Positions 5,463-60,116 of a stretch of 64,000 bases of DNA are shown here, one piece after another. The DNA comes from Lachnospiraceae bacterium AC2028 (GTDB lineage: Bacteria > Bacillota > Clostridia > Lachnospirales > Lachnospiraceae). The DNA lies in the NCBI GenBank assembly GCA_000702685.1, contig JNJD01000011.1, positions 62,001 to 126,000 on the forward strand, given 5' to 3'. A program made the translations under genes and the position numbers. Numbering within the stretch: position 1 is the first letter of the stretch; each line of letters begins with the position of its first letter. Below the pieces are notes generated by a model that did no database searches, had not been told where the DNA came from, and saw only the letters and a list, made by a program, of their open reading frames with translations.

Positions 5463-6146
5463 CTATCTGGATATTATACCATATTTTATCTCTGCAATCT
5501 TCCAATCATCCAAAGTATCTATATCCTGAACTTCCATATCATCCAGGACAAGCGAAACGGTTCTGCCCGGAACAAGGGTATGCTCTTTACGCATGATCTC
5601 GCTCTTTATAAGATAGAACTGCCCCGCATCATGATAGAAAGGTTCCAGATCCTGGCTTCTTGCAAACTGGTATTCCTTCCACTTATATTCCAGAAAGCCG
5701 TCATTCATGACAAAGCACCGCTGAGGCGGAAAAGAAAACCTCACCACGGGTATGACGGCATTTGCATCATTGCTTTCAAAAAGTTCGTAAGCTTTCCTGA
5801 GCTTTTCCGCAGTCACGAAGGGTGCTGTGGGATAAATACAGCACATGACATCCGGATGCTTTCCGAGCTTCTCATAGCTTTCAAGCACCTCGCACATTAC
5901 GTCCACGGTGGTGCTGTGATCGTCGGCATTCTCGAGGCTTCTTTTGAACGGAAGGCTTGCACCGTATTTCACTGCTATCTCGGCTATCTCGTCATCTTCC
6001 GTCGAGATCATGACTTCATCAAACACTCCGCTTCCGAGTGCGGCTTCTATCGAATACGCAAGGATCGGCTTTCCGCAGAATTCCCTGATGTTCTTTCTCG
6101 GTATTCTCTTGCTTCCGCCTCTCGCGGTAATGACTGCTACTTTCAT
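5463..6146 (-). CDS. pseF: Pseudaminic acid cytidylyltransferase (CMP-sugar activation)
   Basis: This 227-residue protein starts MKVAVITARGGSKRIPRKN, the nucleotide-binding signature of CMP-nonulosonate synthetases. CGKPILAYSIEAA, MISTEDDEIAEIA and YPTAPF follow. The length matches PseF/NeuA proteins without extra domains. It would transfer CMP from CTP to a nonulosonic acid in the cytoplasm. The assignment to pseudaminic acid rests on the overlapping upstream gene (4 bp, ATGA type), which is PseI-like rather than NeuB-like. CMP-legionaminate or CMP-sialate synthesis remain alternatives. The biosynthetic genes pseB, pseC, pseG and pseH are not in the window, nor is any flagellin or glycosyltransferase target. 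Confidence 0.85.
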   Translation of the reverse strand: MKVAVITARGGSKRIPRKNIREFCGKPILAYSIEAALGSGVFDEVMISTEDDEIAEIAVKYGASLPFKRSLENADDHSTTVDVMCEVLESYEKLGKHPDVMCCIYPTAPFVTAEKLRKAYELFESNDANAVIPVVRFSFPPQRCFVMNDGFLEYKWKEYQFARSQDLEPFYHDAGQFYLIKSEIMRKEHTLVPGRTVSLVLDDMEVQDIDTLDDWKIAEIKYGIISR

Positions 6147-7174
6147 TTTATATCCTCTTGAGTGAGCGGCTCACCGCGTTTTATATCTCTTGTACATTCG
6201 GTCCCGATAAGAGAGGTGAAATGCTTGGGAGCAATTCCGTATCCCGGACGGATGACACGGATGTTCTCCTCGGAGAACTTCTCTCCGGCTTTTATATCAT
6301 TTATCGCAAAAATGCTTCTTCTGAAAGCCGTGGATGCCTTCTCGCCTTCGGTAAGGGTATAATCCGGTCCTTTGATCGCCTTCTTTGCATTTCTGATATC
6401 GGTGACCATCCTGCCGAATTCCTCGATGGTCATGCTGAAATCGGAATCGGCACTGTTTACTCCGTCAAGCTTGACATGCTTTTCGATAACACACGCACCG
6501 AGCGCAACACCCGCAACCGCCGCGCAGCTCCCCGGACTGTGATCGGAAAGACCGACATAAGTTCCGAATCTTTCGACCATATCGGGAATATTGGCAAGGT
6601 GCATATCTGCCCAGTTTGCAGGATATTCGCTGCAGCATTTCAGGAGAACCACATTGTCGTTATTCATTCTTTTGCATGCGTCAAGTGCATCGGTTATCTC
6701 CTCGGGAGAACCCATTCCGCATGAGATTATCATGGGCTTTCCCTTGGATGCGGCATATTCGATCAGGGGAATATCGACCATCTCGAAGCTTGCGATCTTA
6801 TAGGCCTCGGCTCCGATCTCATCAAGGAAATCAACAGCTTCGTTGTCGAAAGGTGTGGAAAGGAAATCAAGTCCCCATCTTTCGCATTCCTCCTTGATCC
6901 TCTTCTGCCACTCATAGGGAGTGTATGCGGTCTTATACAGATCGTGGAGTTTGTAACCGTCCCATAGTCCGCCCTTGATCTTAAAGTAATCGTTGTCACA
7001 ATCGATCGTAAGCGAATCGGCGGTATAAGTCTGTATCTTCAGACAGTCCGCACCCGTGCCGGCAACCTGCCTAACGATCTCGAGGGCATTGCCGAGGCTT
7101 CCGCCATGATTGGCACTCATTTCGGCTATGATATAGACTTCATCGTTTTTGATCTTTTCAAATAATCGGAACAT
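6143..7174 (-). CDS. pseI: Pseudaminic acid synthase (NeuB family)
   Basis: A 343-residue NeuB/PseI-type enzyme that condenses a 6-deoxy hexose derivative with phosphoenolpyruvate. The TIM-barrel synthase core begins EVYIIAEMSANHGGSLGNA. Substrate and metal motifs include YKIASFEMVDIPLI, GLSDHSPG and EKHVKLDG. The C-terminal 60 residues are a SAF domain (AGEKFSEENIRVIRPGYG). LWDGYKLHDLYKTAYTPYEW resembles PseI more than sialic acid synthases. The ATG at 7174 is chosen because AAGGA lies six bases upstream; an in-frame start at 7192 lacks a site. The gene lies 14 bp after the esterase stop codon and overlaps pseF. Confidence 0.87.
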   Translation of the reverse strand: MFRLFEKIKNDEVYIIAEMSANHGGSLGNALEIVRQVAGTGADCLKIQTYTADSLTIDCDNDYFKIKGGLWDGYKLHDLYKTAYTPYEWQKRIKEECERWGLDFLSTPFDNEAVDFLDEIGAEAYKIASFEMVDIPLIEYAASKGKPMIISCGMGSPEEITDALDACKRMNNDNVVLLKCCSEYPANWADMHLANIPDMVERFGTYVGLSDHSPGSCAAVAGVALGACVIEKHVKLDGVNSADSDFSMTIEEFGRMVTDIRNAKKAIKGPDYTLTEGEKASTAFRRSIFAINDIKAGEKFSEENIRVIRPGYGIAPKHFTSLIGTECTRDIKRGEPLTQEDIK

Positions 7175-7188
7175 ATTTTCCTTCCGGG

Positions 7189-7851
7189 TCAAAAACCCTT
7201 TTTACCGTAATGCTGTACAGCGGCATCAATACCTTTTTGCATTCTTGCGGCAGGCTCGTTAAAATGTCCGCCTTTATTCCATTCGAGACAGGAATCAATA
7301 CCCTTTTCCAACAGAAGATCATACATGGTGCGTATATTATCTTCCACGGAAGACATGACCGCATTTTTTGTTTTAGATTCCTTATCTCCGAGACTCAGAT
7401 ATACATATTCCGCATGGATATCGCATCCGGATGCATATTTTATCCATCCCGGAAACCAGACGGACGGTGAAACCGCGACCGCCCCGGCAAAAGATCCGCT
7501 GTTGCAGATGCAGTACAGTGAGAACAATCCCGCGAGAGAATAGCCTGCAGGAATATGCTTTTTGGGTCCGAAGCTTTTATCGATGTACGGCAGCAGCTCA
7601 CTTTCAATCAATGCAAGAAGTGATGCCGCACCGTTTCCGAAGGGTTTATTTCCGAAAACCGGAGGAGCTTCCCAGGGCGAAAGATCGGTATTCCAGTCAT
7701 CGACCGGATACCTTACGACGAAGCATCCGTCACATACGACGTCTACCGGCTCCTCCTTATCCGCACTGTCATCTATCCGGATAATGCAGATCTTTTCGGA
7801 AGTGTCACCATATATTCTTATACGATCAGCCTTCAAAGAATTCGAATTCAT
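7189..7851 (-). CDS. Putative alpha/beta-hydrolase esterase (Fes/esterase-D-like)
   Basis: About 220 residues from ATG 7851. AGYSLAGLFSLY is the nucleophile elbow (G-x-S-x-G), and the C-terminal GGHFNEPAARM supplies a plausible catalytic His. The region before the elbow (ELLPYIDKSFGPKKHIPAGYS) resembles the putative-esterase family that includes enterochelin esterases and acyl or feruloyl esterases. There is no signal peptide, so a cytoplasmic location is expected. The start overlaps the end of the clostripain-like gene by 26 bp, and the site GGAGAA is about 13 bases upstream, slightly distant. Starts at 7905 or 7917 would add a cysteine-rich extension without similarity to the family. Substrate unknown. 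Its place directly before pseI-pseF could mean a role in nonulosonate or acyl-group processing, but nothing proves it. Confidence 0.68.
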   Translation of the reverse strand: MNSNSLKADRIRIYGDTSEKICIIRIDDSADKEEPVDVVCDGCFVVRYPVDDWNTDLSPWEAPPVFGNKPFGNGAASLLALIESELLPYIDKSFGPKKHIPAGYSLAGLFSLYCICNSGSFAGAVAVSPSVWFPGWIKYASGCDIHAEYVYLSLGDKESKTKNAVMSSVEDNIRTMYDLLLEKGIDSCLEWNKGGHFNEPAARMQKGIDAAVQHYGKKGF

Positions 7852-10282
7852 CAACGAAAAGCAGTTCTCCGTACAGATAGTAGAATGCATCCGAAGTATA
7901 TACATTTCCGTATACATCCGTAACCTGATAAACGATGACGGTATTATCTGAAGTGAGATCTATCTCCCCATAAGTCAGTTTCAGTTCGGAAGCAAGGAAC
8001 GGATCATATGCTTCAACATATTTTTCGTCATCAAGGCAATACCAGATGATCTGGATCTCATCATCATCTTCGAGAGCATAATAGTACTCGTCCTCTTCAT
8101 CCATGACAGTATATCCGGTGATCTTGCCGGAAGGATTGTCCTGATTATAGAAGACCATCAGATAACATTCCACTCCGTTGATCTTAACGGGAATCTTGCC
8201 GGACTGATTCCATTCTCCGGTAGATTCATCCTTGTAATAATCGTATGCGATATAACATACTACCCTGTCGGTAAGGTAAGTCCAGTTCTGAGGATTGTCG
8301 GCAACAAGATCTCCGTCGTTATCAAAATTCCTGAACTGGTCCTGTCCGAGGAAATACAGTTTTCCGTTTGAATCTTCGAGATACATCTTGGAAAGGATCT
8401 CAAGCCATTCTATCGAACTTGTCTCGAAATAATAATGTTCCTCTCCGTCCTCATAAGTTGCGGTATTAGCTTCAAGTTTTATTTCTTCGGCTCCGAAGGA
8501 TAATCCGCTTCCCGAATATGTTTCAAGGATATCCTTTCTGAACCAGTCTCCCGCATATGAAGAAGCCGTGGTGGAACCATACTGGAAAGCAAGTGAAAGC
8601 GAAACATATTCATCGAAGAAATCAACTATTGTGCTGTCATATTCAAGTGCTTTGAAAGTCTTACGTCCATCGCCGTACAAATAGTCATAATCATAAGGAT
8701 AATATGCGGTTATGCCGTGACCGTATGCAAAGTCACTTTCGGTGTAATCAACGGCATTGACGATGGAATTGATCAGTGCTGTTGATGCCGTGTTCTCGTA
8801 CTTATTGGCAAGAGTTACAAGATCCACTGAGTCGGTTCCCATATATATGCCGCAGTTGTCTCTTGCGGTGGTAATTCCTGCGTACTGCTTTCTTTCGAGA
8901 TCGCCTTTGAGAAGATCTATGTAATCGATATAGGCATCATATACCGCTTCGATATGGCTCAGGGAGATTACCGACATAGATGCAATGAGGTCTCTTTCCT
9001 GACAGAAATCCATATAATCGGATACAACCTGCTCCCTGTATTTGCCTTCGGAAACCGGTGAATCCGCAAGAAGGTCGAGCCAGTTGGTGTATGCAAGTCC
9101 GGTACCGTTTACATAGCTCTCCGCACCGATCATATAATCGGCACAGTTTCTGAGAGACATACCCACCTCAAGCGAACACATATTACATGCATCAAAGATT
9201 ATGCTGTCAAAATGTATTCCTGTCTTTTCAAGAGCATGTCCGATCTGATAATCGGTAAGACAGTCATTGGGGAAAAGCTCGTCATGTCCGTAGCTGATAG
9301 GTATTCCGCCTCCATGATTCCAGAGGATAAGAACATAATCATCCGCAGGATATTCATCAGCTGCAAATTCAACAAACTCGGTCAGAGTGGCAGGCTGAAC
9401 CATTGAGATCTTTCCGAGATCATCAAGTTCATGGAACTTGCCGTCCTTATAGTTGAATCTCTGCACGGTGTCATCCTTGCAGAAAGTATTATCCCAGTTT
9501 GTGCATCCGCCGGTCTGTATGACGATATTGGTATCATCTGTAAGCTTAGCCTTGGTGATCTCGATAAGGTCTGCGGAAGCAAGTCCGGCCTCACTCTCAA
9601 GATCTGAACCGATCATATAGATCATGATGGTCTGCTTTGCCTGAGTCTCTTCGGGCTCGGGATCCACATCCGGTTCGGGATCCGGATCGGGAGTATCAAC
9701 AACAGGCTCTTCGGGCTGTCTGCCGGAGAAATATTTATACCCTGCGATACCGCCGCCGCACAGAGCAAGAATTATTATGATGACTGCGGCAATGATTCCG
9801 CCCTTCTTCTTTTTCTTGACCGGTGCCTCGGGATGCTGTACGGGCATCATGGCAGGTGTCGTATCATACTGAGGCTGAAAAAACGGAGTCTGGGGCTGTA
9901 CGGGAGCCTGTGCCTGAGGCTGAACAATGGGCTGGGGCTGAGGTTCAACCGGAGCTGCGTTCTGTATAGGAGCAGCGGGCTGAGGCTCAGCGGGTGCTGT
10001 GTTCTGAACAGGAGCGGCAGGCTGGGGCTGAGGTTCTACAGGTATTGCGTTCTGTATAGGAGCAGTGGCCTGAGGCTGAGGCTCAGCGGGTGCTGCCGGC
10101 TGTACGGGAGCTGCCGCCTGAGGAGCGGGCTCTGCGTGAGCCTGAGGCTGTACAGGTGTCTGTGGCTGAACGGGAGCCTGTGCCTGAGGCTGGACGGGTG
10201 CTTCCGTCTGCATGGGAGCTCCGCAGTTGATACAGAATTTGGTTCCTTCGGGCATCTGTGACCCGCATTTCATACAGAACAT
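7826..10282 (-). CDS. Zinc-ribbon, Pro/Gln-linker, membrane-anchored clostripain (C11) family peptidase
   Basis: An 818-residue multi-part protein. Residues 3-20 form a zinc ribbon (Cys3, 6, 17, 20). Residues 25-150 are a low-complexity linker rich in Pro, Gln and Ala with repeated EPQPQPAAPVQN-like units. Residues 163-183 form one membrane helix preceded by five lysines. An acidic Pro/Asp spacer follows, and from about residue 218 a clostripain-like domain has WNHGGG (His323) and FDACNM (Cys366), the expected His-Cys dyad. By the positive-inside rule the ribbon and linker are cytoplasmic and the peptidase external. The C-terminal 250 residues look beta-rich and unassigned. The site GGAGG lies eight bases before the ATG. 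Confidence 0.86.
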   Translation of the reverse strand: MFCMKCGSQMPEGTKFCINCGAPMQTEAPVQPQAQAPVQPQTPVQPQAHAEPAPQAAAPVQPAAPAEPQPQATAPIQNAIPVEPQPQPAAPVQNTAPAEPQPAAPIQNAAPVEPQPQPIVQPQAQAPVQPQTPFFQPQYDTTPAMMPVQHPEAPVKKKKKGGIIAAVIIIILALCGGGIAGYKYFSGRQPEEPVVDTPDPDPEPDVDPEPEETQAKQTIMIYMIGSDLESEAGLASADLIEITKAKLTDDTNIVIQTGGCTNWDNTFCKDDTVQRFNYKDGKFHELDDLGKISMVQPATLTEFVEFAADEYPADDYVLILWNHGGGIPISYGHDELFPNDCLTDYQIGHALEKTGIHFDSIIFDACNMCSLEVGMSLRNCADYMIGAESYVNGTGLAYTNWLDLLADSPVSEGKYREQVVSDYMDFCQERDLIASMSVISLSHIEAVYDAYIDYIDLLKGDLERKQYAGITTARDNCGIYMGTDSVDLVTLANKYENTASTALINSIVNAVDYTESDFAYGHGITAYYPYDYDYLYGDGRKTFKALEYDSTIVDFFDEYVSLSLAFQYGSTTASSYAGDWFRKDILETYSGSGLSFGAEEIKLEANTATYEDGEEHYYFETSSIEWLEILSKMYLEDSNGKLYFLGQDQFRNFDNDGDLVADNPQNWTYLTDRVVCYIAYDYYKDESTGEWNQSGKIPVKINGVECYLMVFYNQDNPSGKITGYTVMDEEDEYYYALEDDDEIQIIWYCLDDEKYVEAYDPFLASELKLTYGEIDLTSDNTVIVYQVTDVYGNVYTSDAFYYLYGELLFVDEFEFFEG

Positions 10283-50906: not shown

Positions 50907-52532
50907 TCACTTCGATTCATCTTCACCGAGTACACGGTCATAAAGCTCAAGACCGAAGCTCGTAAGTTCCGGAGCATGAGGGATCATCTTAAAGGTACGC
51001 TTTCCGTCATCAAGATGCTCGGCGCTCAGAAACACAACGCTCTCATCATCTTTCGTCTCTTCATACATCTGCTGCGCAAAAGAAAGAAGATGCGTTACCG
51101 TATAAATCTTCACACCGGCTTCCTTAAGTGCCTTCACAATTCCGTATGCGATTGCAGATCCGTCTTTTTCGGTGGTTGTTGCAAATGATTCGTTAAGCAG
51201 GACAAGCGATCCCTTTGTAAGACCGTTGACTATCCTGTCCATCCTGCGAAGCTCTTCATCGAGTCTTCCGCTGTTCATAGCACTTTCTTCACGCCTTGTA
51301 AAGTGTGTATATATGGAAGTCTGTATGGGGCTTCTGTATCTTTTTGCGGCAACTATAAGACCGCACTGCATCATGACCTGAGCAACACCGAGGCTTCTCA
51401 GGAAAGTGGATTTGCCTCCCTGATTGGCACCGGTTATGATGACAAGCTGCTTATCATCAAGCCTTCCGGTATTCGCTACAGTCCTTCCGTTAAGACTGAA
51501 GGAAAGTATAAGTTCCCTGAGTTCTTCGTAACGAAGCCTGTTTTCTTCATCGGTCTCGGGATAACAGTAATCAATATTGAATCTGACCATCTGCGATCTT
51601 ATATTGATCGCGCCGAGATAGAACCCCATCTGAAAATGCAGCTGATCGAAGAACGAACCGAAATCGGCAACAAGGTCGGTACAGAAAGAATACACATACG
51701 ACACAACCGCAAACTCCAGCTTTTCCGCATCTTCCTTGAGTGCCTGATCGTTACGCAGGGATATGACACCGGGTGCAAAAGAAGTGATCCTGTCGGCAAT
51801 CTTATTACCCATGCCAAACTGTCTGTCATACTCGATCGCTTTTGATTCGAGACTGTCTATCCTGAAATCGCCGACCTTAAGGCCGTTGCTGAGTCCGCAT
51901 TCCAGGCGCATCTTAGGGATCCTGACAAGATACTCGTTCCTTTTTCTTTCATTTTCATATATGTCGGAATAGAAAGACATACTGTCCAGGAAAATATAGA
52001 GATTCGTCTGTCTTTCATCGGAGAATTCATTCTCAAGCCTCTCGCAAAGCCCCTGCCATCCTTCCGATTCAAGTCCGGCCCTGTTCAACAGGACTGTTTT
52101 TTTCACATCCCTCATTCCGTCGACAAGGAGCTTGAAGACTTTGATATCGGTGATCAGCTTTCCCTTTGTTCCGACTTCACCGGCGGCATTGTTCTTCCTT
52201 CCGAGCCTGTCCCACTCGGAAAGAACACGCGTGGATATACGATACAGTTCATCGACCATCCCCTGTTTCGTAAAGCAGTCCTTCAGGATATCCTGTCTGT
52301 ACTTTATCTCTTCCGCGGTCTTGAGCGGTACGGCCATGACTCTCTTGACAGCCTGTCCGAGATACGGATCGCCGTCATCGGGAGTAGCGATCCTTTTGTT
52401 CCTTACGACATTTTCTGTTTCGGCAGCCTTAAACAGCGAATTAAGTTCAAGATCCTTGGTAATGGAGAGCCAGTCCCTGTAAGGAGCTGCCGATCCCCAT
52501 TCCCTATCACGGTATAACAAGTTCAGGTTCAT
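50907..52532 (-). CDS. MutS-like ATPase (second of a coupled pair)
   Basis: 541 residues with a MutS lever/clamp region (60-340) and a MutS ATPase domain: Walker A GANQGGKST (368-376), QTSIYTHFTRREESAMNSG, and Walker B LVLLNES (Asn447-Glu448). The canonical MutS Walker B has Asp-Glu; here it reads Asn-Glu. ESFATTTEKDGSA replaces the EIGRGTSTYDG segment and THLLSF replaces THY. No mismatch-recognition domain with the Phe-x-Glu motif is present, so this is not a mismatch-repair MutS. The start overlaps the upstream MutS-like gene by 4 bp (ATGA). Confidence 0.82.
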   Translation of the reverse strand: MNLNLLYRDREWGSAAPYRDWLSITKDLELNSLFKAAETENVVRNKRIATPDDGDPYLGQAVKRVMAVPLKTAEEIKYRQDILKDCFTKQGMVDELYRISTRVLSEWDRLGRKNNAAGEVGTKGKLITDIKVFKLLVDGMRDVKKTVLLNRAGLESEGWQGLCERLENEFSDERQTNLYIFLDSMSFYSDIYENERKRNEYLVRIPKMRLECGLSNGLKVGDFRIDSLESKAIEYDRQFGMGNKIADRITSFAPGVISLRNDQALKEDAEKLEFAVVSYVYSFCTDLVADFGSFFDQLHFQMGFYLGAINIRSQMVRFNIDYCYPETDEENRLRYEELRELILSFSLNGRTVANTGRLDDKQLVIITGANQGGKSTFLRSLGVAQVMMQCGLIVAAKRYRSPIQTSIYTHFTRREESAMNSGRLDEELRRMDRIVNGLTKGSLVLLNESFATTTEKDGSAIAYGIVKALKEAGVKIYTVTHLLSFAQQMYEETKDDESVVFLSAEHLDDGKRTFKMIPHAPELTSFGLELYDRVLGEDESK

Positions 52533-54028
52533 GAGAATCTCTCCTTTAACTGATCATATGTAAGTCTGTATTTGACTACAAGTTTGTTGACTGTATTTAC
52601 TTCGACCGGCATGCTTCGTCCGATCCGGAAGGTCTGATTATTATTCTCATCGACTTCGGCTATAAGACTTACGACTCCGGTTCCCGCTTCGGTAAGTTCA
52701 CTGAGATGCGTTACGTATATTCCCCTGCATTTTTTGGATATGAGTTTTCTGAGAACTCTCTGTCCCATCTCCACCGCATCAAAATTTGCCGCCGTGGTAA
52801 AGAGCTCGTTGATGACGACAAAAGCTCCGTCCCTGCTGTCATCCATGATCGGCCTGAGTCTTACAAGTTCATCCATGAGTTTTCCGCGTCCGGACTCGGC
52901 ACTTTCCTCAACGGAAAAATGCGTGCACAGATCGGTAAAATACGGAACGCACGCCGATGCAGCGGGAACACTGAATCCCATCTTGGAAAACCATATAAGC
53001 TGTCCGAGGCTTCGTCCGTATGTCGTCTTTCCGCCCTGATTGGGACCGGTCAGAACGAAGAACGATTCGTCACCCGAAAGCATGAGCGGGTTGGATACAA
53101 CTTTTTTTCCAAGCTCCGTATTGGTGATTGCAAGAGCAAGATCGTACAGATCATCGGCGGAAAGTTTATCATCCGATGCTTCCGGCATATTCATCTCAAA
53201 TCCCTGCTTTTTCATATATCTTTCAAATGCCGCAAAAGCAAGGTAATAGACCATCTCTGATTCGACAGACGATAATTCCTTATTATCCACTGAGGGATAG
53301 TCGCTGCAGAACTTCTCAAGCTTTCTGAAAAACTCCTTATTCTTCCTTGTGAACAGTCTTACTATCTCGGCCTCAAGATCCGAGTAGTACTCCGTATCGG
53401 TGAAAGGATTGTCGAACACACTCTTTTCACCGGGGAACAGTTCCGTAAGGAATTTCTCATAAGCTCCGGGAGCGGTTCCGTTCGTGATCGTAAAATGGCC
53501 CTTGTCATATGAAAGGACAACGTGGAAATCCGACAGTTCCTTCCAGAGTGAAGTTGATTCGCTGTACAGATTTTTGAAGCCCGGATCGGAAAGATACGAG
53601 GAAAGGAAAGAAGAAAAAGCCTTCATGCCTTCAGACCTAAGCTGAGCTTTCTTCAGATCCGCATCAAGTGTCACGAGTGAGGAAACATAAGTGTAGATGA
53701 CCCTGAGATACCACACTCTCTTCTGGACTAGTTCATATGCATTTTCAATCTTGGAGGAATAATCCAGACGTGCTTTGATAAAAGAATGATATTTGAACAG
53801 CGCGGAATATACCTGATCGTTTCTGATATCAGCGTATACAGCCCTTCTGTATTCTTCGTCTTCCTTACAGGATGGAAAAGAAGCATAAAGGGATCTTACA
53901 TCTTCATCCCATCCGTCGCAGACCTTATCAAGGATCTGATCAATATTCAGATCCGTAAAGACCGATTCCGACAAAGGGGTTTCTTTTTCGGCATTTTCGG
54001 AGCTTTTTCTCAGCAGACTCAGGGGCAT
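52529..54028 (-). CDS. MutS-like ATPase (first of a coupled pair)
   Basis: 499 residues. A divergent helical N-terminal region (20-300) precedes a MutS-type ATPase: Walker A GPNQGGKTT (328-336), CTHFSVEESAESGRGKLMDE and Walker B FVVINEL (Asn407-Glu408). The Asn-Glu Walker B is shared with the downstream partner. No mismatch-recognition, Smr or endonuclease domain was seen. The two proteins probably form a heterodimer because the genes overlap. It follows the ABC exporter by 15 bp. Function unknown; recombination-intermediate or nucleic-acid remodelling roles are conceivable. Confidence 0.78.
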   Translation of the reverse strand: MPLSLLRKSSENAEKETPLSESVFTDLNIDQILDKVCDGWDEDVRSLYASFPSCKEDEEYRRAVYADIRNDQVYSALFKYHSFIKARLDYSSKIENAYELVQKRVWYLRVIYTYVSSLVTLDADLKKAQLRSEGMKAFSSFLSSYLSDPGFKNLYSESTSLWKELSDFHVVLSYDKGHFTITNGTAPGAYEKFLTELFPGEKSVFDNPFTDTEYYSDLEAEIVRLFTRKNKEFFRKLEKFCSDYPSVDNKELSSVESEMVYYLAFAAFERYMKKQGFEMNMPEASDDKLSADDLYDLALAITNTELGKKVVSNPLMLSGDESFFVLTGPNQGGKTTYGRSLGQLIWFSKMGFSVPAASACVPYFTDLCTHFSVEESAESGRGKLMDELVRLRPIMDDSRDGAFVVINELFTTAANFDAVEMGQRVLRKLISKKCRGIYVTHLSELTEAGTGVVSLIAEVDENNNQTFRIGRSMPVEVNTVNKLVVKYRLTYDQLKERFS

Positions 54029-54043
54029 GGCATGTACCTCTTT

Positions 54044-55795
54044 TTATGCGTTTGAATATTGTGCTGTATAAAGATCGTAATAGAAACCTTTTGAAGCAAG
54101 AAGCGAATCGTGAGTACCGGTTTCGATAACATGACCGTCCTTCATTACGAGAATGAGGTCCGCTTCCTTGATCGTCGATAATCTGTGGGCAACGATGAAA
54201 CTCGTACGCCCTTTCATGAGCTTTGCAAATGCACTCTGTATCTTAAGCTCGGTTCTGGTATCGATCGAGCTTGTAGCTTCATCGAGGATGAGCATCGGAG
54301 GAAGTGCGAGCATTACCCTTGAAATACAAAGGAGCTGCTTCTGTCCCTGTGAAAGACCTTCTCCGTCCTCTCCTATGATCGTCTGATATCCGTTTTCCAG
54401 TCTCTTGATGAATCCGTGTGCGTGTGATGCCTTAGCTGCTTCAATTACTTCTTCATCACTTGCATCGGGCTTTCCCATGCGGATATTGTCCATTATCGTT
54501 CCGGACTTAAGCCAGGTCTCCTGAAGAACCATTCCGTAACAGTTACGAAGATCCTTTCTCGAGATCTCCCTGATGTCCTTGCCGTCCACTTTGATACATC
54601 CGCTGACCGGTTCATAGAATCTCATAAGGAGATTGATTATTGTAGTCTTACCGCATCCGGTAGGTCCTACTATCGCTATCCTCTGACCGCTCGATACGCT
54701 GACATTAAGATCTTCGATAAGAGGTCTGTCGGGAACATAACTGAAATCAACATTTTCTATGTCAACATTACCGGCGACGCTGTCCTTGGCTACAGGCTCC
54801 GCAGCTTCGGCGATAACGCTCTTTTCATCTATCAGTTCGAATATCCTTCCCGCGCAGACAAGTGCGTTCTGGAATTCGGTTATGACTCCGGATATCTCAT
54901 TGAAGGGTTTTGTGTACTGGCTTGCATATCCGAGGAATGCAGTAAGTCCGCCGATGGTTATGCCGCCGTTTATGGCATAGATCGCACCGCCGACTCCGAC
55001 AAGTGCATAGACACAGGAATTGACAAATCTCGTCGAGGGATTTGTAAGACTGGAAATAAAGATTGCCTTCAGCGAAGCATTGCAAAGCGTTTCGTCAGCC
55101 TTATCAAACTGCTCTGTCGCTTCGTCTTCGTATGAAAAAACTCTGACCGTCTTCTGTGAAGAGATCATCTCTTCGGTAAGCTCGGTAAGAACACCTCTCG
55201 CTTCGGACTGGGCTTTAAACATCGAATGGGATCTTGTCGCAATGAATCTTGCAACAAGAAGAGACAGGGGCGTGATTATCACGACCAAAAGAGCGATGAG
55301 AGGGCTCATCCTAACCATAAAGATAAGAGTTCCGATTATCGTCATAAGACCCGTAAAAAGCTGTGTAAAGCCCATCAGAAGGCCGTCTGCGAATGTATCC
55401 GCATCCGTTATCATACGGCTGAGCACATCGCCGGTCCTGTGAGAATCAAGATAGCTTATAGAAAGCTCCTGGATCTTCTTCATCGCATCATTTCTGATAT
55501 CTCTTACCACATTATATGTAATGTGATTTCCGAGCCTGCTCATAAGATACTGGAAAAATGCGGAAATAAGCGCTGCTACACCGACCTTTCCGGCCGAGGC
55601 GATAACGGCATCCATATCTATGTTTCCGGGTCCGACGGTAAGAAGATCCACGGCTCTTCCCGTAAGTACCGGAATGTACAGTGAAAATGCCACAGAAACA
55701 GCGGCAAAAATGAGCACAAAGATTCCCGCAGGAATATATCTTCCGATATATTCAAACAGTCTCTTTATTGTCTTTTTGCCGCTTTTATTCTTCAT
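54044..55795 (-). CDS. ABC exporter half-transporter, canonical nucleotide site
   Basis: 583 residues from ATG 55795 (a TTG lies directly before it; neither has a good ribosome site). Six membrane helices fill residues 15-310. The ATPase domain has Walker A VGPTGCGKTT, signature LSQGQKQ, Walker B MLILDEATSSID and the H-loop IVAHRLS. The LSQGQ signature with an intact Glu and His is typical of the canonical subunit in heterodimeric exporters of the TM287/288, LmrCD and BmrCD type. The degenerate partner is expected next door but is 4.4 kb upstream, at 60188-61972. Confidence 0.9.
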   Translation of the reverse strand: MKNKSGKKTIKRLFEYIGRYIPAGIFVLIFAAVSVAFSLYIPVLTGRAVDLLTVGPGNIDMDAVIASAGKVGVAALISAFFQYLMSRLGNHITYNVVRDIRNDAMKKIQELSISYLDSHRTGDVLSRMITDADTFADGLLMGFTQLFTGLMTIIGTLIFMVRMSPLIALLVVIITPLSLLVARFIATRSHSMFKAQSEARGVLTELTEEMISSQKTVRVFSYEDEATEQFDKADETLCNASLKAIFISSLTNPSTRFVNSCVYALVGVGGAIYAINGGITIGGLTAFLGYASQYTKPFNEISGVITEFQNALVCAGRIFELIDEKSVIAEAAEPVAKDSVAGNVDIENVDFSYVPDRPLIEDLNVSVSSGQRIAIVGPTGCGKTTIINLLMRFYEPVSGCIKVDGKDIREISRKDLRNCYGMVLQETWLKSGTIMDNIRMGKPDASDEEVIEAAKASHAHGFIKRLENGYQTIIGEDGEGLSQGQKQLLCISRVMLALPPMLILDEATSSIDTRTELKIQSAFAKLMKGRTSFIVAHRLSTIKEADLILVMKDGHVIETGTHDSLLASKGFYYDLYTAQYSNA

Positions 55796-55827
55796 CAAAT
55801 ATTCAGGTTAATCCGAGGAACATTTTT

Positions 55828-55855
55828 GAGTCACAGGGACAGTCCCTTCTGACTC
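55828..55855. repeat. Family B palindromic repeat, diverged
   Basis: GAGTCA/TGACTC arms around GGGAC/GTCCC with several mismatched bases between. Together with the copy at 55889 it fills the gap between the ACT gene and the ABC exporter. Confidence 0.7.
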
Positions 55856-55888
55856 TTCATACAATATTCAAGTTAAACTGCGGAACAG

Positions 55889-55926
55889 ATTATGAGTCAG
55901 GGGGGACTGTCCCCGTGACTCATAAT
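55889..55926. repeat. Family B palindromic repeat overlapping the ACT-gene stop
   Basis: 38 bp: outer arms ATTATGAGTCA/TGACTCATAAT, inner GGGGAC/GTCCCC, centred on T. The TGA stop of the ACT-domain gene (55920-55922) is part of the right arm. Confidence 0.8.
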
Positions 55927-56354
55927 GTGGGGATATCGTCCTGTGATACAACGCGGATGCCGGCCTTGGTAAGTGCAGCCTGCGCAACCTTGTGATCGTT
56001 TACACGGAATACCATGTATGCCTTGTTTCCGGAATTTTCAGCGGAAAGCGCATACATATATTCAAGGTTGATCTTCTCGTCGGCAAATACCTTGAGGATC
56101 ATGCTGAGGCCCCCGGGAATATCGGGGATCTCGGCAACGACAACGCTCGTGAGCTTGTTGATGTAATTTGAATCCTTGAGCACGGTTGTTGCTTCGTAAA
56201 CATCGTCAACGATGATACGGACGATTCCGAAACCCTCGGTCTCTGCAAGGGAGATACCTCTCATGTTGATGCCGCGCTCAGCAAGAACTTCTGTCATCTC
56301 ACACATTTTACCGGGCTTATTTTCAAGAAATATTGAGATCTGTTTAACGCTCAT
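55920..56354 (-). CDS. Tandem ACT-domain protein of the indolepyruvate oxidoreductase cluster
   Basis: 144 residues: two ACT domains, residues 3-68 (QISIFLENKPGKMCEMTEVL) and 70-140 (SVVVAEIPDIPGGLSMILKV). Such free-standing ACT proteins bind small ligands, often amino acids, and occur beside phenylacetate-CoA ligase and IorAB in many anaerobes. It may sense an aromatic amino acid and regulate the neighbours; this is inferred from context. AAGGAGG precedes the ATG. Confidence 0.9.
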   Translation of the reverse strand: MSVKQISIFLENKPGKMCEMTEVLAERGINMRGISLAETEGFGIVRIIVDDVYEATTVLKDSNYINKLTSVVVAEIPDIPGGLSMILKVFADEKINLEYMYALSAENSGNKAYMVFRVNDHKVAQAALTKAGIRVVSQDDIPTL

Positions 56355-56369
56355 ATAAGTACCTCCTTA

Positions 56370-57671
56370 TCAGATTTTTCTCTTATCGATTACACGTACC
56401 GCCTTGCCTTCGCTTCTTGCGATGGTCTGGGGAGCTACGAGTGTGACCTTAGCCTTTATTCCGAGCATGTTTACAAGGCCCTGCATGAGCTCATTCTGAG
56501 CCTTGGTGATATCGGATACGTTATCGGTGAACATCTCGGGAGTCATCTCTACCTGGATATCGAATGTATCGGTGTTGTTCACGCGGTCAACGATGATCTG
56601 GTAGTTAGCCTGATAACCGTGCTCGAGAAGAACGGTTTCGATCTGTGAAGGGAATACATTGACTCCGCGGATGATGAGCATGTCATCGCTTCTTCCCATG
56701 GGCTTGGCCATTCTGATGAATGTTCTTCCGCAGCTGCACTTTTCCTTGGAAAGTCTGCAGATATCCTTGGTGCGGTATCTCATCATCGGGAATGCTTTCT
56801 TATCGATAGCGGTGAAAACAAGTTCTCCGGTCGATCCGTCGGGAAGGACTTCAAGCGTATCGGGATCGATGATCTCCGCAATGAAGTGGTCCTCGTTGAT
56901 GTGCATTCCGTGCTGTTCGCTGCACTCATATGCAACGCCGGGACCCGAAAGCTCGGTAAGTCCGTAGATATCATATGCCTTGATGCCGAGAGACTCTTCG
57001 ATGCTCTTTCTCATCTCCTCGCTCCATGCCTCTGCGCCGAAGATGCCGGCCTTAAGAGGGATGTCATCGGGAGTAAGTCCCATCTCCTTCATGGATTCAC
57101 CGAGGTATGCGGCATATGAAGGAGTACAGCAGATTATGGATGCGTTAAGATCCTGTATGAACATGATCTGACGCTCGGTATTTCCGGATGACATGGGAAC
57201 TGTCATGCAGCCTACCTTCTGGCTTCCACCGTGAACTCCGAGGCCGCCGGTAAAGAGACCGTAACCGTAAGAAATCTGTACGACATCCTCCTCGGATGCA
57301 CCGGCAGCAACAAGTGCTCTTGCGCAGCAGGTCTCCCACATATCAAGGTCTTCCTGCGAATAATATGCGATAACTCTTTTTCCTGTGGTTCCGGAAGTTG
57401 AATGGATCCTTACGACATCCTTCTTGGGAACGCCGAGGAGTCCGTCGGGATAAGTCTCCCTGAGATCTGCCTTGGACATAAAGGGAAGCTTGTGAAGATC
57501 TTCGATGGACTTGATGTCATCGGGCGTAACTCCCGCCTTCTCCATCTTCTTGCGATAATAAGGAACATTGTCCCATACATGCTTTACCTGCTCGACAAGC
57601 TTTTCGTTCTGAATCTTTGTGATCTCTTCTCTCGAAGCGCATTCCGCTTCTTTCTGAAAATACCTTTCCAC
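56370..57671 (-). CDS. paaK: Phenylacetate-CoA ligase family enzyme
   Basis: 433 residues starting at GTG 57671, which has AGGAG seven bases upstream. An ATG-free extension to 57716 would be encoded by the palindrome and is rejected. Adenylate-forming motifs: STSGTTGKRVIAYY, DIYGLTELSGPG, YRTKDICRLS and the four-Cys-type CSCGRTF loop. It interconverts aryl-acetate, CoA and ATP with aryl-acetyl-CoA. With IorAB it would turn arylpyruvates to aryl-acetyl-CoA and then to the acid with ATP synthesis, or the reverse. Confidence 0.92.
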   Translation of the reverse strand: MERYFQKEAECASREEITKIQNEKLVEQVKHVWDNVPYYRKKMEKAGVTPDDIKSIEDLHKLPFMSKADLRETYPDGLLGVPKKDVVRIHSTSGTTGKRVIAYYSQEDLDMWETCCARALVAAGASEEDVVQISYGYGLFTGGLGVHGGSQKVGCMTVPMSSGNTERQIMFIQDLNASIICCTPSYAAYLGESMKEMGLTPDDIPLKAGIFGAEAWSEEMRKSIEESLGIKAYDIYGLTELSGPGVAYECSEQHGMHINEDHFIAEIIDPDTLEVLPDGSTGELVFTAIDKKAFPMMRYRTKDICRLSKEKCSCGRTFIRMAKPMGRSDDMLIIRGVNVFPSQIETVLLEHGYQANYQIIVDRVNNTDTFDIQVEMTPEMFTDNVSDITKAQNELMQGLVNMLGIKAKVTLVAPQTIARSEGKAVRVIDKRKI

Positions 57672-57762: not shown

Positions 57763-58335
57763 TTACGCGTTTTTGCCGAGCTCAAATGCCTTTTTGTTCA
57801 TTTCAAGGAACTTGGCGGGAACGATTGCTTCCATTGCTTTCATCCATGCCTCTTCGGGCATATCGAAATAATGTGAAAGACGTCCCATAAGGACTATGTT
57901 AACTGCCTTGGATGATCCTGCCTCTTCCGCAAGTGCAAGGCAGTCAAGTGCATCAACCTTTGCACCGGTCGCTTTCATTTTCTCAACAAGATCCTCGGGA
58001 TACTGCATCGCGCCCGTGATGACGGGCATGGGATCGATCTGCTGGATATTGGTAACGATCTGACCGTCCTTCTTAAGGTAAGGAAGCCATCTTGCGGCTT
58101 CGAGGAGCTCAAAAGAAACTATTACGTCAGCCTCACCCTCATCGATAACGGGAGAATAAACATGCTCGCCGTATCTTACATAAGTAACAACGCTTCCGCC
58201 TCTCTGGCTCATTCCGTGAACTTCGGAAACCTTTACATCATATCCTTCATCGAGAAGGAGTCGTCCGAGAAGCTTACTTGCAAGGAGTGAACCCTGTCCG
58301 CCGACTCCCACTATCATTACATTCTTCGTACTCAT
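57763..58335 (-). CDS. iorB: Indolepyruvate:ferredoxin oxidoreductase beta subunit
   Basis: 190 residues of the pyruvate/ketoisovalerate oxidoreductase gamma-type fold: MIVGVGGQGSLLASKLLG, EVHGMSQRGGSV and YSPVIDEGEADVIVSFE. The subunit pairs with IorA. AGGAGG precedes the ATG, two bases after the iorA stop codon. Confidence 0.94.
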   Translation of the reverse strand: MSTKNVMIVGVGGQGSLLASKLLGRLLLDEGYDVKVSEVHGMSQRGGSVVTYVRYGEHVYSPVIDEGEADVIVSFELLEAARWLPYLKKDGQIVTNIQQIDPMPVITGAMQYPEDLVEKMKATGAKVDALDCLALAEEAGSSKAVNIVLMGRLSHYFDMPEEAWMKAMEAIVPAKFLEMNKKAFELGKNA

Positions 58336-58337
58336 CT

Positions 58338-60116
58338 TCAGTCCTCCTTCTGGCAGGATTCAAATGCTCCTACCGGGCAAAGCTGCTCGCAGATTCCGCA
58401 ACCGACGCAAAGAGTATTGTCGATATGCGCTTTTCCGTCCTTCATGGAGATTGCGGGACATCCGATCTTCATGCAGGACTTGCAGCCTACGCACTTATCC
58501 CTGTTAACCTTGAGAGGAGGATTGTGCTTTACATTCTTGAGAAGTGCACAGGGTCTTCTTGAGATGATGACCGAAGGAGCCTTGACGGCAAGTTCTTCCT
58601 TGATCGCATCATCGCATGCCTTAAGATCGTAAGGATCGACTACGCGCACACGCTCGAATCCCATTGAACGGCAGAGAGCTTCAAGATCGATCTTACCTGC
58701 GGGATCGCCCTTGATGTTAAGACCGGTCGTAGGATTCTGCTGATGTCCGGTCATACCTGTGATCGAATTATCAAGGATGATGACGGTTGAATCGGACTGG
58801 TTATATGCGATGTTTGCAAGGCCGGTCATACCTGAGTGCATAAAGGTTGAATCACCGATGACCGCAACGGTCTTACCTTCGTTCTCACCGCCGCCTGCCT
58901 TGTTGAATCCGTGGATCGCACTTACGGATGCACCCATGCAGAGGGTCATATCCATTGCAGAAAGAGGTGCCACTGCTCCGAGAGTGTAGCATCCGATATC
59001 TCCGAGTACGGTGCACTTGTTCTTGCTGAGTGTATAGAAAAGTCCTCTGTGGGGGCATCCCGCACACATTACGGGAGGTCTCATCGGTATCTGATCATTT
59101 ACGGAAGAAATCTCTTCTCCGCTGTACTCAGCGCCGGTAACAAGAGGTGACAGGCACTTTTTGAGGAGATTCTGTGAGAACTCTCCGCAGATGGGAAGAA
59201 CATCCTTACCGTAAACACTGAGTCCGAGTGCCCTGCAGTGATTTTCAATGATGGGATCGAGCTCTTCGGCAACAATAACGGTATCAACCTTGGATGCGAA
59301 ATCCCTGATGAGATTTACGGGAAGAGGATTTACCATTCCGAGCTTGAGAACGGAAACGGTATTTCCGAATGCTTCCCTTACATACTGATATGTTGTAGAG
59401 CAGGTGATGATACCGACATGCTTTCCGGAAGCGGATGCATCCCTCATCTCAACTCTGTTAAAAGAAGCCGTCTCAGCAAGCTCGCGGAGCTTAGCGGTCC
59501 TCTCTTCAACAAAGGGATGCCTCTTGATTGCATTACCGGGCATCATGACATTCTTGGGAATGTTCTTTTCGTAAGGTTTTCTTGCAATCTGTGCTCTCTC
59601 GGAAGTCTCGACAACCGACTGTGAGTGTGCAACACGTGTGCACATCTTCACAATGACGGGAGTGTCATATTCTTCGGAAAGATCATATGCAAGCTTTACA
59701 AAAGAAAGAGTCTCTCCGGAATCCGAAGGCTCGAGCATGGGAACCTTGGATGCGATCGCATGATGTCTGGAATCCTGCTCATTCTGTGATGAATGCATTC
59801 CCGCATCATCGGCTACGCAGATAACAACACCGCCGTTAACGCCGGTGTATGACATTGTATAAAGGGGATCGGCTGCAACGTTAAGGCCTACATGCTTCAT
59901 TCCGCAGTAGCTGCGTGCACCTGCAAGTGATGCACCGAAAGCCGCTTCCATCGCAACCTTCTCATTGGGTGCCCATTCGCAGTAGATCTCATCATACTTT
60001 ACCGCCTCTTCCGTAACCTCGGTACTGGGCGTGCCGGGATAACTGGAAATAAAAGAACAGCCCGCTTCGTACAGTCCGCGTGCAAATGCTTTATTTCCGA
60101 GCATTAACTCCTTCAT
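58338..60116 (-). CDS. iorA: Indolepyruvate:ferredoxin oxidoreductase alpha subunit
   Basis: 592 residues. The N-terminal pyrimidine domain begins FARGLYEAGCSFISSYPGTP; the thiamine diphosphate domain has GDIGCYTLG and GDSTFMHSGMTGLANIAYNQ. The C-terminus has two [4Fe-4S] sites (CVGCKSCMKIGCP and CVGCGICEQLCP). It oxidatively decarboxylates aryl pyruvates from Trp, Phe and Tyr to aryl-acetyl-CoA, reducing ferredoxin. AGGAGG is 11 bp before the ATG. A TATAAT-like hexamer at 60167-60172 may be its promoter, without a clear -35. Confidence 0.95.
   Translation of the reverse strand: MKELMLGNKAFARGLYEAGCSFISSYPGTPSTEVTEEAVKYDEIYCEWAPNEKVAMEAAFGASLAGARSYCGMKHVGLNVAADPLYTMSYTGVNGGVVICVADDAGMHSSQNEQDSRHHAIASKVPMLEPSDSGETLSFVKLAYDLSEEYDTPVIVKMCTRVAHSQSVVETSERAQIARKPYEKNIPKNVMMPGNAIKRHPFVEERTAKLRELAETASFNRVEMRDASASGKHVGIITCSTTYQYVREAFGNTVSVLKLGMVNPLPVNLIRDFASKVDTVIVAEELDPIIENHCRALGLSVYGKDVLPICGEFSQNLLKKCLSPLVTGAEYSGEEISSVNDQIPMRPPVMCAGCPHRGLFYTLSKNKCTVLGDIGCYTLGAVAPLSAMDMTLCMGASVSAIHGFNKAGGGENEGKTVAVIGDSTFMHSGMTGLANIAYNQSDSTVIILDNSITGMTGHQQNPTTGLNIKGDPAGKIDLEALCRSMGFERVRVVDPYDLKACDDAIKEELAVKAPSVIISRRPCALLKNVKHNPPLKVNRDKCVGCKSCMKIGCPAISMKDGKAHIDNTLCVGCGICEQLCPVGAFESCQKED

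Follow-up and report, generated by a model that had tools for sequence, protein, structure and literature searches.

Paired MutS-like ATPases with an Asn-Glu Walker B motif in Lachnospiraceae, and a sister group mostly located in fluoride-riboswitch operons

The closest described relatives of the genes reported here are ATPases of the MutS type. MutS and the MSH2-MSH3 proteins combine a core/lever fold with the ATPase domain known as MutS domain V, while MutS2 has the core/lever and ATPase regions and lacks the mismatch domains. These domains are also missing from KamC (NF052383), a short MutS-like ATPase whose neighbours we take to be genes of aminomutase clusters. According to the section of a review dealing with Walker motif residues 693-696 of Escherichia coli MutS, substitutions there abolish ATPase activity, and the structure of the D693N mutant is 3K0S (PMC3848065). 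The crcB (fluoride) riboswitch has been described from 2010 onwards as preceding 'DNA repair (mutS)' genes, the passages on the crcB motif in Weinberg et al. (2010, PMC2864571) placing it upstream of mutS genes and reading these as DNA repair. Here we describe a pair of MutS-like genes, A and B, from Lachnospiraceae bacterium AC2028 and the family to which they belong; an earlier description of this paired family was not found in the open-licence literature, and none of the fluoride papers listed in our search of that literature mentions mutS.

The pair lies within a window of 64,000 nucleotides, which is the whole stretch of DNA analysed (part of contig JNJD01000011.1), and has the following features.

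54044..55798, minus strand: ABC exporter gene, 15 nt 5' of A and on the same strand (ORF list, Pfam)
52529..54028, minus strand: A gene, first of the pair, a MutS-like ATPase of 499 aa (ORF; MutS_V; A clade)
53021..53047, minus strand: A Walker A, GPNQGGKTT, residues 328-336
52802..52822, minus strand: A Walker B, FVVINEL, residues 403-409, with Asn407-Glu408
52706..52708, minus strand: A switch (H-loop) residue, His441; Phe in group II A
52529..52532, minus strand: 4 nt shared by the stop of A and the start of B (ORF list)
50907..52532, minus strand: B gene, second of the pair, a MutS-like ATPase of 541 aa (ORF; MutS_V; B clade)
51405..51431, minus strand: B Walker A, GANQGGKST, residues 368-376
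51186..51206, minus strand: B Walker B, LVLLNES, residues 443-449, with Asn447-Glu448
51090..51092, minus strand: B switch (H-loop) residue, His481

A first-pass annotation, made from the letters of the DNA, had read two overlapping MutS-family genes devoid of mismatch-recognition, Smr and nuclease domains and with Asn in place of the Walker B Asp, and all of this proved correct. In Pfam, MutS_V is the sole domain matched in B and the sole match above cut-off in A, where a cholesterol-oxidase domain scores 16.1 against a cut-off of 25 bits; no mismatch-recognition, connector, Smr, nuclease or KOW domain is matched in either protein. The exporter upstream is separated from A by 11 nt in the nearest relatives (L061-L063), and exporter and A are perhaps co-transcribed both here and there; the family at large does not conserve it as a partner. 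A second A-B pair is present in the same genome.

The relatives of these genes adjoin, and do not occur singly and far apart, the outcome that would have told against a functional pair. A is followed by B in 77 of 80 named relatives, the contig beginning at B in the other three; the two are adjacent in every locus with enough sequence, and the 4-nt overlap recurs in 87 of 122 adjacent pairs as called. Three loci seemingly without A (L091, L113 and L135) proved to be artefacts of ORF calling, and the stops inside the B matches G566, G714 and G487 are located at called ORF ends and were for that reason not taken as breaks. In the tree, A forms one clade and B another (100/99 and 100/98), which upholds the subfamily part of the proposal that the pair represents a distinct functional subfamily. 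Each clade splits in the same two ways, into a group I that is nearly all Lachnospiraceae and contains the window pair, and a group II that is its sister. Within groups the distances in A and B are correlated (r 0.92 and 0.90; 0 of 500 permutations as high), a correlation that shared species history alone could also yield. Adjacency and correlated distances fit an obligate heterodimer, which we infer A-B to be. Close relatives are under purifying selection, with dN/dS of 0.05-0.11 in six YN00 comparisons and about 0.13 in two more distant ones calculated by NG86 fallback, ratios which are rough because dS exceeds 1 throughout.

All 48 A rows and all 48 B rows in the tree alignment have the Walker B Asn, as does locus L120, so that orthologues carry Asn-Glu and not Asp-Glu; retention in every row, together with purifying selection among close relatives, argues that the motif is not a product of chance. 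One of the two patterns used to scan for the 80 loci includes the Asn of B, which is therefore partly selected in those loci, while the Asn of A formed no part of the selection and loci found by profile were not selected for Asn at all. As a marker of the paired clade the motif holds to the extent that all A and B retain it and falls short in that three single-gene relatives share Asn-Glu. The window pair itself is adjacent, falls within the A and B clades and has Asn-Glu in both members. Where a Ser-Thr motif is usual, A, B and the proteins nearest to them have Gly-Lys/Arg, and the A switch residue is His in all 23 tree rows of group I and Phe in all 25 of group II; the window A, with His441, belongs to group I on both residue and placement. 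Every aligned row of B, and every one of group I A, conserves Walker A, the Walker B Glu and the switch His. The E. coli D693N protein has the same Asp to Asn change, but it is a single-residue laboratory mutant of a complete mismatch-repair protein, whereas in A and B the change is kept across two clades. Pairing, clade structure and motif states are thereby established.

Group II is mostly located in fluoride-riboswitch operons. Among 18 group II loci from the phylum to which the window belongs, collected without regard to fluoride, a match to RF01734 lies directly 5' of A in 12, against a chance expectation of about 0.005 in 18, and in another 4 it lies 5' of A with one transporter gene between. 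RF01734 is present in 17/17 carrier genomes and 122/380 others (Fisher p 9e-9, uncorrected for kinship). A riboswitch 5' on the strand of A is lacking in 6 of a set of 29 group II loci: it is truly absent there in four (L238, L239, L244 and L251), occupies the divergent strand in L213, and is apparently missing in L241 because of an over-long ORF start; some group II riboswitch sites score under the Rfam threshold. Most of the plasmid copies of the pair that were examined sit inside fluoride islands, with genes for crcB, enolase, UspA, pyrophosphatase or an antiporter. Group II A and B frequently carry the annotation 'DNA mismatch repair protein MutS', and like the 'mutS' genes of the crcB regulon in the cited passages of PMC2864571 they stand under RF01734; the genes printed there are probably A-B pairs. 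The earlier view that the pair has no assigned role accordingly needs amending, given a sister group under fluoride riboswitches and a crcB-mutS link in print in those passages since 2010. Since the MutS-like genes under riboswitches are paired, free of mismatch domains and altered in their catalytic motifs, a DNA-repair reading is doubtful, as is the label 'DNA repair protein MutS' for the family.

The reading that we favour, with modest confidence, is that A-B is an obligate heterodimeric ABC ATPase of the MutS fold, an ATP-driven clamp or remodeller that acts as a stress module and not in mismatch repair. Counting against this reading are the want of a fluoride link in the window's own group, the group II loci with no riboswitch upstream on the strand of A, the Asn-Glu of single-gene relatives, and the loss of ATPase activity that the review cited above ascribes to substitutions in this motif of E. 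coli MutS. Profiles of A and B match MSH3, MSH2 and MutS2 chains across the core and ATPase regions, and the predicted single-chain folds (AlphaFold pLDDT 86.6 and 84.3) find their best Foldseek matches in MutS2, MutS and MutS-beta. The heterodimer would consist of core and lever helices, a beta hairpin at the place of the MutS clamp, and a dimerising ATPase domain, and would work on nucleic acid or nucleoprotein; by analogy, our best guess for the substrate is nucleic acid or the ribosome. With MutS and MSH2-MSH3 the pair has MutS domain V and the core/lever fold in common, and its organisation may resemble the heterodimers of MSH proteins, but domains I and II are absent and the clamp region is smaller, being reduced in both models to a predicted beta hairpin that is longer in B. 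Neither protein has the Asp-Glu Walker B and Ser-Thr motif of MutS1 in the alignment, Asn-Glu and Gly-Lys/Arg standing in their place, and scores for the NCBIfam MutS equivalog PRK05399 (B 79.9, A 63.2 bits) fall below the cut-off of 480.

A clamp for DNA repair or recombination, comparable to MSH4/MSH5 and loading as a heterodimer on branched or damaged DNA, is a less probable account that still deserves weight, in which group II would be induced by fluoride because fluoride stress harms DNA or replication. It draws on fold and sequence nearest to MutS/MSH proteins and on the DNA-repair interpretation of crcB-linked mutS in the passages of Weinberg et al. (2010, PMC2864571), yet the hairpin clamp and the missing mismatch-recognition and connector domains sit poorly with it, and the recurrent partners in the islands concern ion transport and fluoride-inhibited metabolic enzymes, with no repair genes among them.

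Somewhat less likely is a remodeller of ribosomes or RNP resembling MutS2, which splits stalled ribosomes through a MutS-type ATPase; the parts of PMC10897456 on this activity describe the ATPase domain of MutS2 as critical and splitting as requiring ATP hydrolysis, and the best Foldseek match of A is MutS2. However, neither A nor B matches KOW or Smr, the domains that recruit MutS2 to collided ribosomes, and the pair differs from MutS2 also in its two distinct subunits and its Walker B. Both proteins fall outside the MutS2 clade, which is distant in the tree, score 71.5 and 41.8 bits against the NCBIfam mutS2 cut-off of 400, and come from a genome that encodes its own MutS2.

Of similarly low probability is a role for the window pair itself in fluoride tolerance under some other regulation. 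The sister-group relation, with the same domains and the same pairing, speaks for it, and the passage on gene control in a review (PMC11139923) puts riboswitch control at only about 15% for Fluc genes and 30% for those of CLC-F. Against it, RF01734 is found neither in the window nor in its genome, which also has no match to CrcB, the one exporter type that the search covered; two of the four group II genomes compared likewise have no CrcB match. In the genomes of 50 relatives there are 7 RF01734 matches, spread over 6 genomes; 2 of the 7 exceed the cut-off, and all are off the contig of the pair. Neighbours were compared across 93 loci (91 of the group I kind, with L056 and L058): no cluster occurs in more than 12, positions and strands vary, and no fluoride gene recurs beside the pair. 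By sequence, the two largest neighbour clusters resemble ordinary ABC proteins. No common leader motif emerged from 80 upstream regions, and no Rfam leader is found at the pair in seven additional loci from the window's family; away from the pair, matches in those seven were to tRNAs, an RT-5 RNA and, at a distance, a glycine riboswitch. The window pair thus differs from the riboswitch-associated 'mutS' in the passages of PMC2864571 in having no riboswitch, no fluoride island, and the diagnostic His instead of Phe at the A switch.

We regard as improbable a reactivase akin to KamC, an ATPase that would rid its client enzymes of an inhibitor caught in them, which in group II would be a magnesium-fluoride complex. 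KamC is MutS-like, is named a reactivase by NCBIfam and aligns to both proteins, and enolase and pyrophosphatase genes lie within group II islands; but its profile scores only 69.3 and 51.6 bits against a cut-off of 300, it has Asp-Glu, and it groups with MutS2. As for a KamB/KamC reactivase pair, each of ten fetched KamC loci holds a single MutS-like gene, with Asp-Glu, and we reject KamC as kin of A-B beyond the superfamily level. Lysine 5,6-aminomutase (PF09043) has 0 matches in the window genome, as in control genomes. Equally improbable are dead, purely structural nucleotide-binding subunits, a notion prompted by the loss of ATPase activity on substitution at residues 693-696 and the D693N structure 3K0S in the cited section of PMC3848065, and opposed by the conservation of Walker A, Walker B Glu and switch His throughout the aligned B and group I A proteins.

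Two further candidates were rejected. PADLOC gave only weak matches for B (best E 0.0014) and none for A, and hence no known defence system; a phage origin has to its credit one unverified 7.7-kb record among 50,697, perhaps bacterial DNA, in a scan that did not extend to viral contigs.

In the heterodimeric remodeller that we favour, Asn at the magnesium position together with Gly-Lys/Arg for Ser-Thr would slow the ATPase cycle and favour a long-lived ATP-bound state; the first-pass annotation likewise expected the Asn to alter magnesium binding. Group II may have evolved under magnesium-fluoride stress, with its A site weakened by the change from His to Phe, while the group I copy in the window, with both switch His kept, may have a general function that the known fluoride riboswitch does not induce. 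A wider proposal, offered tentatively and with less confidence than the remodeller itself, is that a two-subunit ATPase family of the MutS fold, mislabelled as mismatch repair, remodels a core cellular machine and came to be drawn into stress regulons, group II being fluoride-switched and asymmetric through loss of the switch His in A, and group I, of gut and rumen Lachnospiraceae, keeping both switch His and having a non-fluoride function. With these genes identified, a component of fluoride islands becomes directly testable, and the window pair, as the fluoride-free sister branch, offers the natural comparison, differing in one catalytic residue of A and in regulation. If the proposal is true, Asn for Asp with a basic residue where Ser-Thr usually stands would constitute a new low-magnesium-binding ATP site among MutS/ABC proteins, one perhaps tolerant of magnesium-fluoride.

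The first-pass annotation reported two overlapping MutS-like genes, and both open reading frames lie where it placed them, sharing 4 nt:

52529-54028, minus strand: A, the first gene of the pair, 499 aa, ahead of B
50907-52532, minus strand: B, the second gene, 541 aa, overlapping A by 4 nt

The Asn-Glu Walker B is present in both protein sequences. MutS_V is the sole Pfam domain above cut-off in the pair, and both proteins score far under the cut-offs of the NCBIfam models for MutS, MutS2 and KamC (a short MutS-like protein named reactivase by NCBIfam). AlphaFold models of the single chains (pLDDT 86.6 for A and 84.3 for B) each contain a helical core/lever, a beta hairpin at the expected place of the clamp, short in A and longer in B, and an ATPase domain. 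The best Foldseek matches are MutS2 and MutS for A, and MutS-beta and MutS for B; the domain arrangement is matched poorly, since TM-scores are near 0.5 and rmsd is high. The window genome, with a tool-estimated completeness of 99.6%, holds seven MutS_V matches: MutS, MutS2, a 565-aa Asp-Glu single, the window pair and, on another contig, a further A-B pair. The 565-aa protein (L009, contig C6, 5032-6729) has hydrophobic segments and a long branch. Elsewhere in the window, the interval separating an ABC exporter from an ACT-domain gene contains a strong long hairpin at 55820-55928 (-57.7 kcal/mol, z -9.4). It resembles a REP/MITE-type repeat; the genome has 34 copies of a 17-base segment from its arm and none of the reversed control. 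Two genes at 57763-60116 with pyruvate/indolepyruvate-ferredoxin-oxidoreductase domains neighbour an AMP-binding (phenylacetate-CoA-ligase-like) gene and an ACT-domain protein.

The two-gene MutS-like ATPase family is real and widespread. Its presence is patchy within the window's own family, where a search with a capped number of scored candidates per genome found A-B pairs in at least 9 of 149 genomes, the window genome counted. Scanning named genomes yielded 570 confirmed relatives; because the best 80 of these were taken (68 assemblies, 12 with two loci each), the sample is tilted to close kin. A is followed by B at 77 of these 80 loci, five of them with one gene cut at a contig end (L063, L078, L083, L094, L123); at the other three (L069, L105, L111) the contig begins at B. 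The overlap is exactly 4 nt in 87 of 122 adjacent pairs as called, part of the remainder being due to over-long ORF starts. Six close comparisons gave dN/dS of 0.05-0.11 and two distant ones about 0.13; dS was > 1.

In a tree of 134 domain-V rows, picked from loci in hand, A and B each form one branch (support 100/99 and 100/98), which bears out the earlier idea of a distinct subfamily, and a long, fully supported branch separates them from MutS1, MutS2, KamC and the 565-aa single. The single-gene relatives termed R and a third kind of pair group with A and B (99/88). This third, divergent kind of adjacent Asn-Glu pair (L242 and L243, in G404 and G577) attaches on the B side, a placement left unsure by its very long branches; one member has an unusual Walker A, GDNSSGKT, and L243 includes an additional related fragment at the contig edge. 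Asn-Glu occurs in A (48/48), B (48/48), the third kind of pair (4/4) and R (3/3), and Asp-Glu in the H singles (7/7), KamC (10/10), MutS2 (7/7), MutS1 (6/6) and the 565-aa single. The proposal that Asn-Glu marks a clade of adjacent pairs thus stands as regards the adjacency of A and B, but the motif extends to all three R singles. Single-gene Asn-Glu proteins akin to the pairs (L040, L041, L047; 563-601 aa) carry GANRGGKTT and lie in varied neighbourhoods. An automatic motif count read Asn-Glu in 120 of 124 A rows and 123 of 129 B rows; eight of the ten exceptions are pieces or variants lacking the Walker A pattern (these include the B members of L242 and L243, which have Asn-Glu in the 134-row alignment), and the remaining two are the degraded L250 and a regex misread in L120.

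Further changes lie in the catalytic motifs. The Ser of the Ser-Thr motif acts in trans in MutS; Gly-Lys/Arg replaces Ser-Thr ahead of the conserved Glu in A, B, R, H and the third kind of pair. The motif also varies among other MutS proteins (Ser-Ser in two KamC, Ser-Tyr in the 565-aa single). The laboratory counterpart of the Walker B change is E. coli MutS D693N; according to a review (PMC3848065), the magnesium-bound waters are held by residues 693-696, and ATPase activity is abolished when these are substituted.

The A and B trees share an identical two-way split. Group I comprises 23 loci, including both window-genome pairs, its named relatives being nearly all Lachnospiraceae. Group II comprises 25, from other genomes of the phylum, and from plasmids (hosts in Actinomycetota, Pseudomonadota and one Alicyclobacillus), together with L056 and L058, which lie in genomes of the window's family. 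A distances correlate with B distances (r 0.92 in group I, 0.90 in group II; none of 500 permutations reached this level), which can also come from shared species history alone. The switch His, which contacts the gamma phosphate, is kept as VTH in B (48/48) and in group I A (23/23 tree rows, 52/52 rows of alignment A3), whereas group II A has VTF (25/25, including L056 and L058). A wider automatic read gave His in 80 of 88 A proteins of the group I kind (8 unread), Phe in 30 of 32 of group II (2 unread), and His in both A proteins of the third kind. Judged from these residues, the group II pair would be asymmetric, its A site weakened, since Phe replaces the switch His in A and B keeps it.

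Group II is associated with fluoride (crcB) riboswitches, called with Rfam RF01734 (gathering threshold 34 bits). A context-blind set of 18 loci in 17 genomes was drawn at profile scores > 450 bits from 398 evenly drawn phylum genomes; at most three candidates were scored per genome, so carriers number at least 17. RF01734 lies directly upstream of A, on the same strand with no intervening gene, at 12 of 18 loci, against a chance expectation of about 0.005: 11 computed (L224, L226-L231, L234-L236, L240) and L241, where the site falls inside an over-long ORF with the next start codon 19 nt beyond it. One MFS transporter gene intervenes at L225, L232, L233 and L237, and no RF01734 was found near A at L238 and L239. 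Among these 16 sites, four fall below the gathering threshold (L225 31.5, L231 33.5, L232 28.4, L241 24.7 bits). Genome-wide, RF01734 (E <= 1e-6) occurs in 17/17 carriers versus 122/380 others, G000 set aside (p 9e-9, uncorrected for kinship).

Among 11 plasmid loci, a table omitting L250 (apparently degraded) and L252 (same island as L211), RF01734 is directly upstream in five (L212, L214, L245, L246, L249) and about 2 kb upstream, past antiporter and UspA genes, in three of one island type (L211, L247, L248); it is on the divergent strand only at L213, only elsewhere in the island at L244, and absent at L251. Neighbours of the plasmid relatives vary among crcB, a CLC-type channel, enolase, pyrophosphatase, UspA, phosphoglycerate mutase, an antiporter and a P-type ATPase. 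The near-identical Enterobacteriaceae plasmids count as a single event or a few; at megablast similarity the pair occurs in 1 of 5426 E. coli genomes, on the query plasmid itself. Fluoride-riboswitch islands repeatedly include a dynamin-family GTPase, present in 8 of 29 clustered loci (L225, L226, L228, L231-L235) and annotated in the Burkholderia island L212. The L251 pair (5719-8744, Tsukamurella plasmid), of group II type, adjoins dnaE, in a stretch with no above-threshold riboswitch or annotated fluoride gene.

No link to fluoride is seen in the window's own branch. The window genome has no RF01734 match, nor does the window at the gathering threshold, and 53500-56500 gives none at E up to 5. 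Under stricter filters, the genomes that carry 50 of the 80 named loci gave seven matches in six genomes, two above cut-off, all on contigs that by their lengths are not those of the pairs. No common motif was found upstream of A, where the upstream gene and its distance vary. CrcB was not found in the window genome, an absence that says little, given matches in 4/8 other carrier genomes of the family and 2/4 of group II.

The riboswitch-mutS association was already known, since Weinberg et al. 2010 (PMC2864571) describe 'DNA repair (mutS)' genes downstream of the crcB motif. Neither 'mismatch' nor 'DNA repair' occurs in a 2024 review of fluoride resistance (PMC11139923). In the open-licence literature searched, we found no description of the pairing, the missing domains, the motif changes or the two-group history. 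The most useful addition to the first-pass annotation is a sister group belonging to the fluoride regulon, together with caution about the window's branch.
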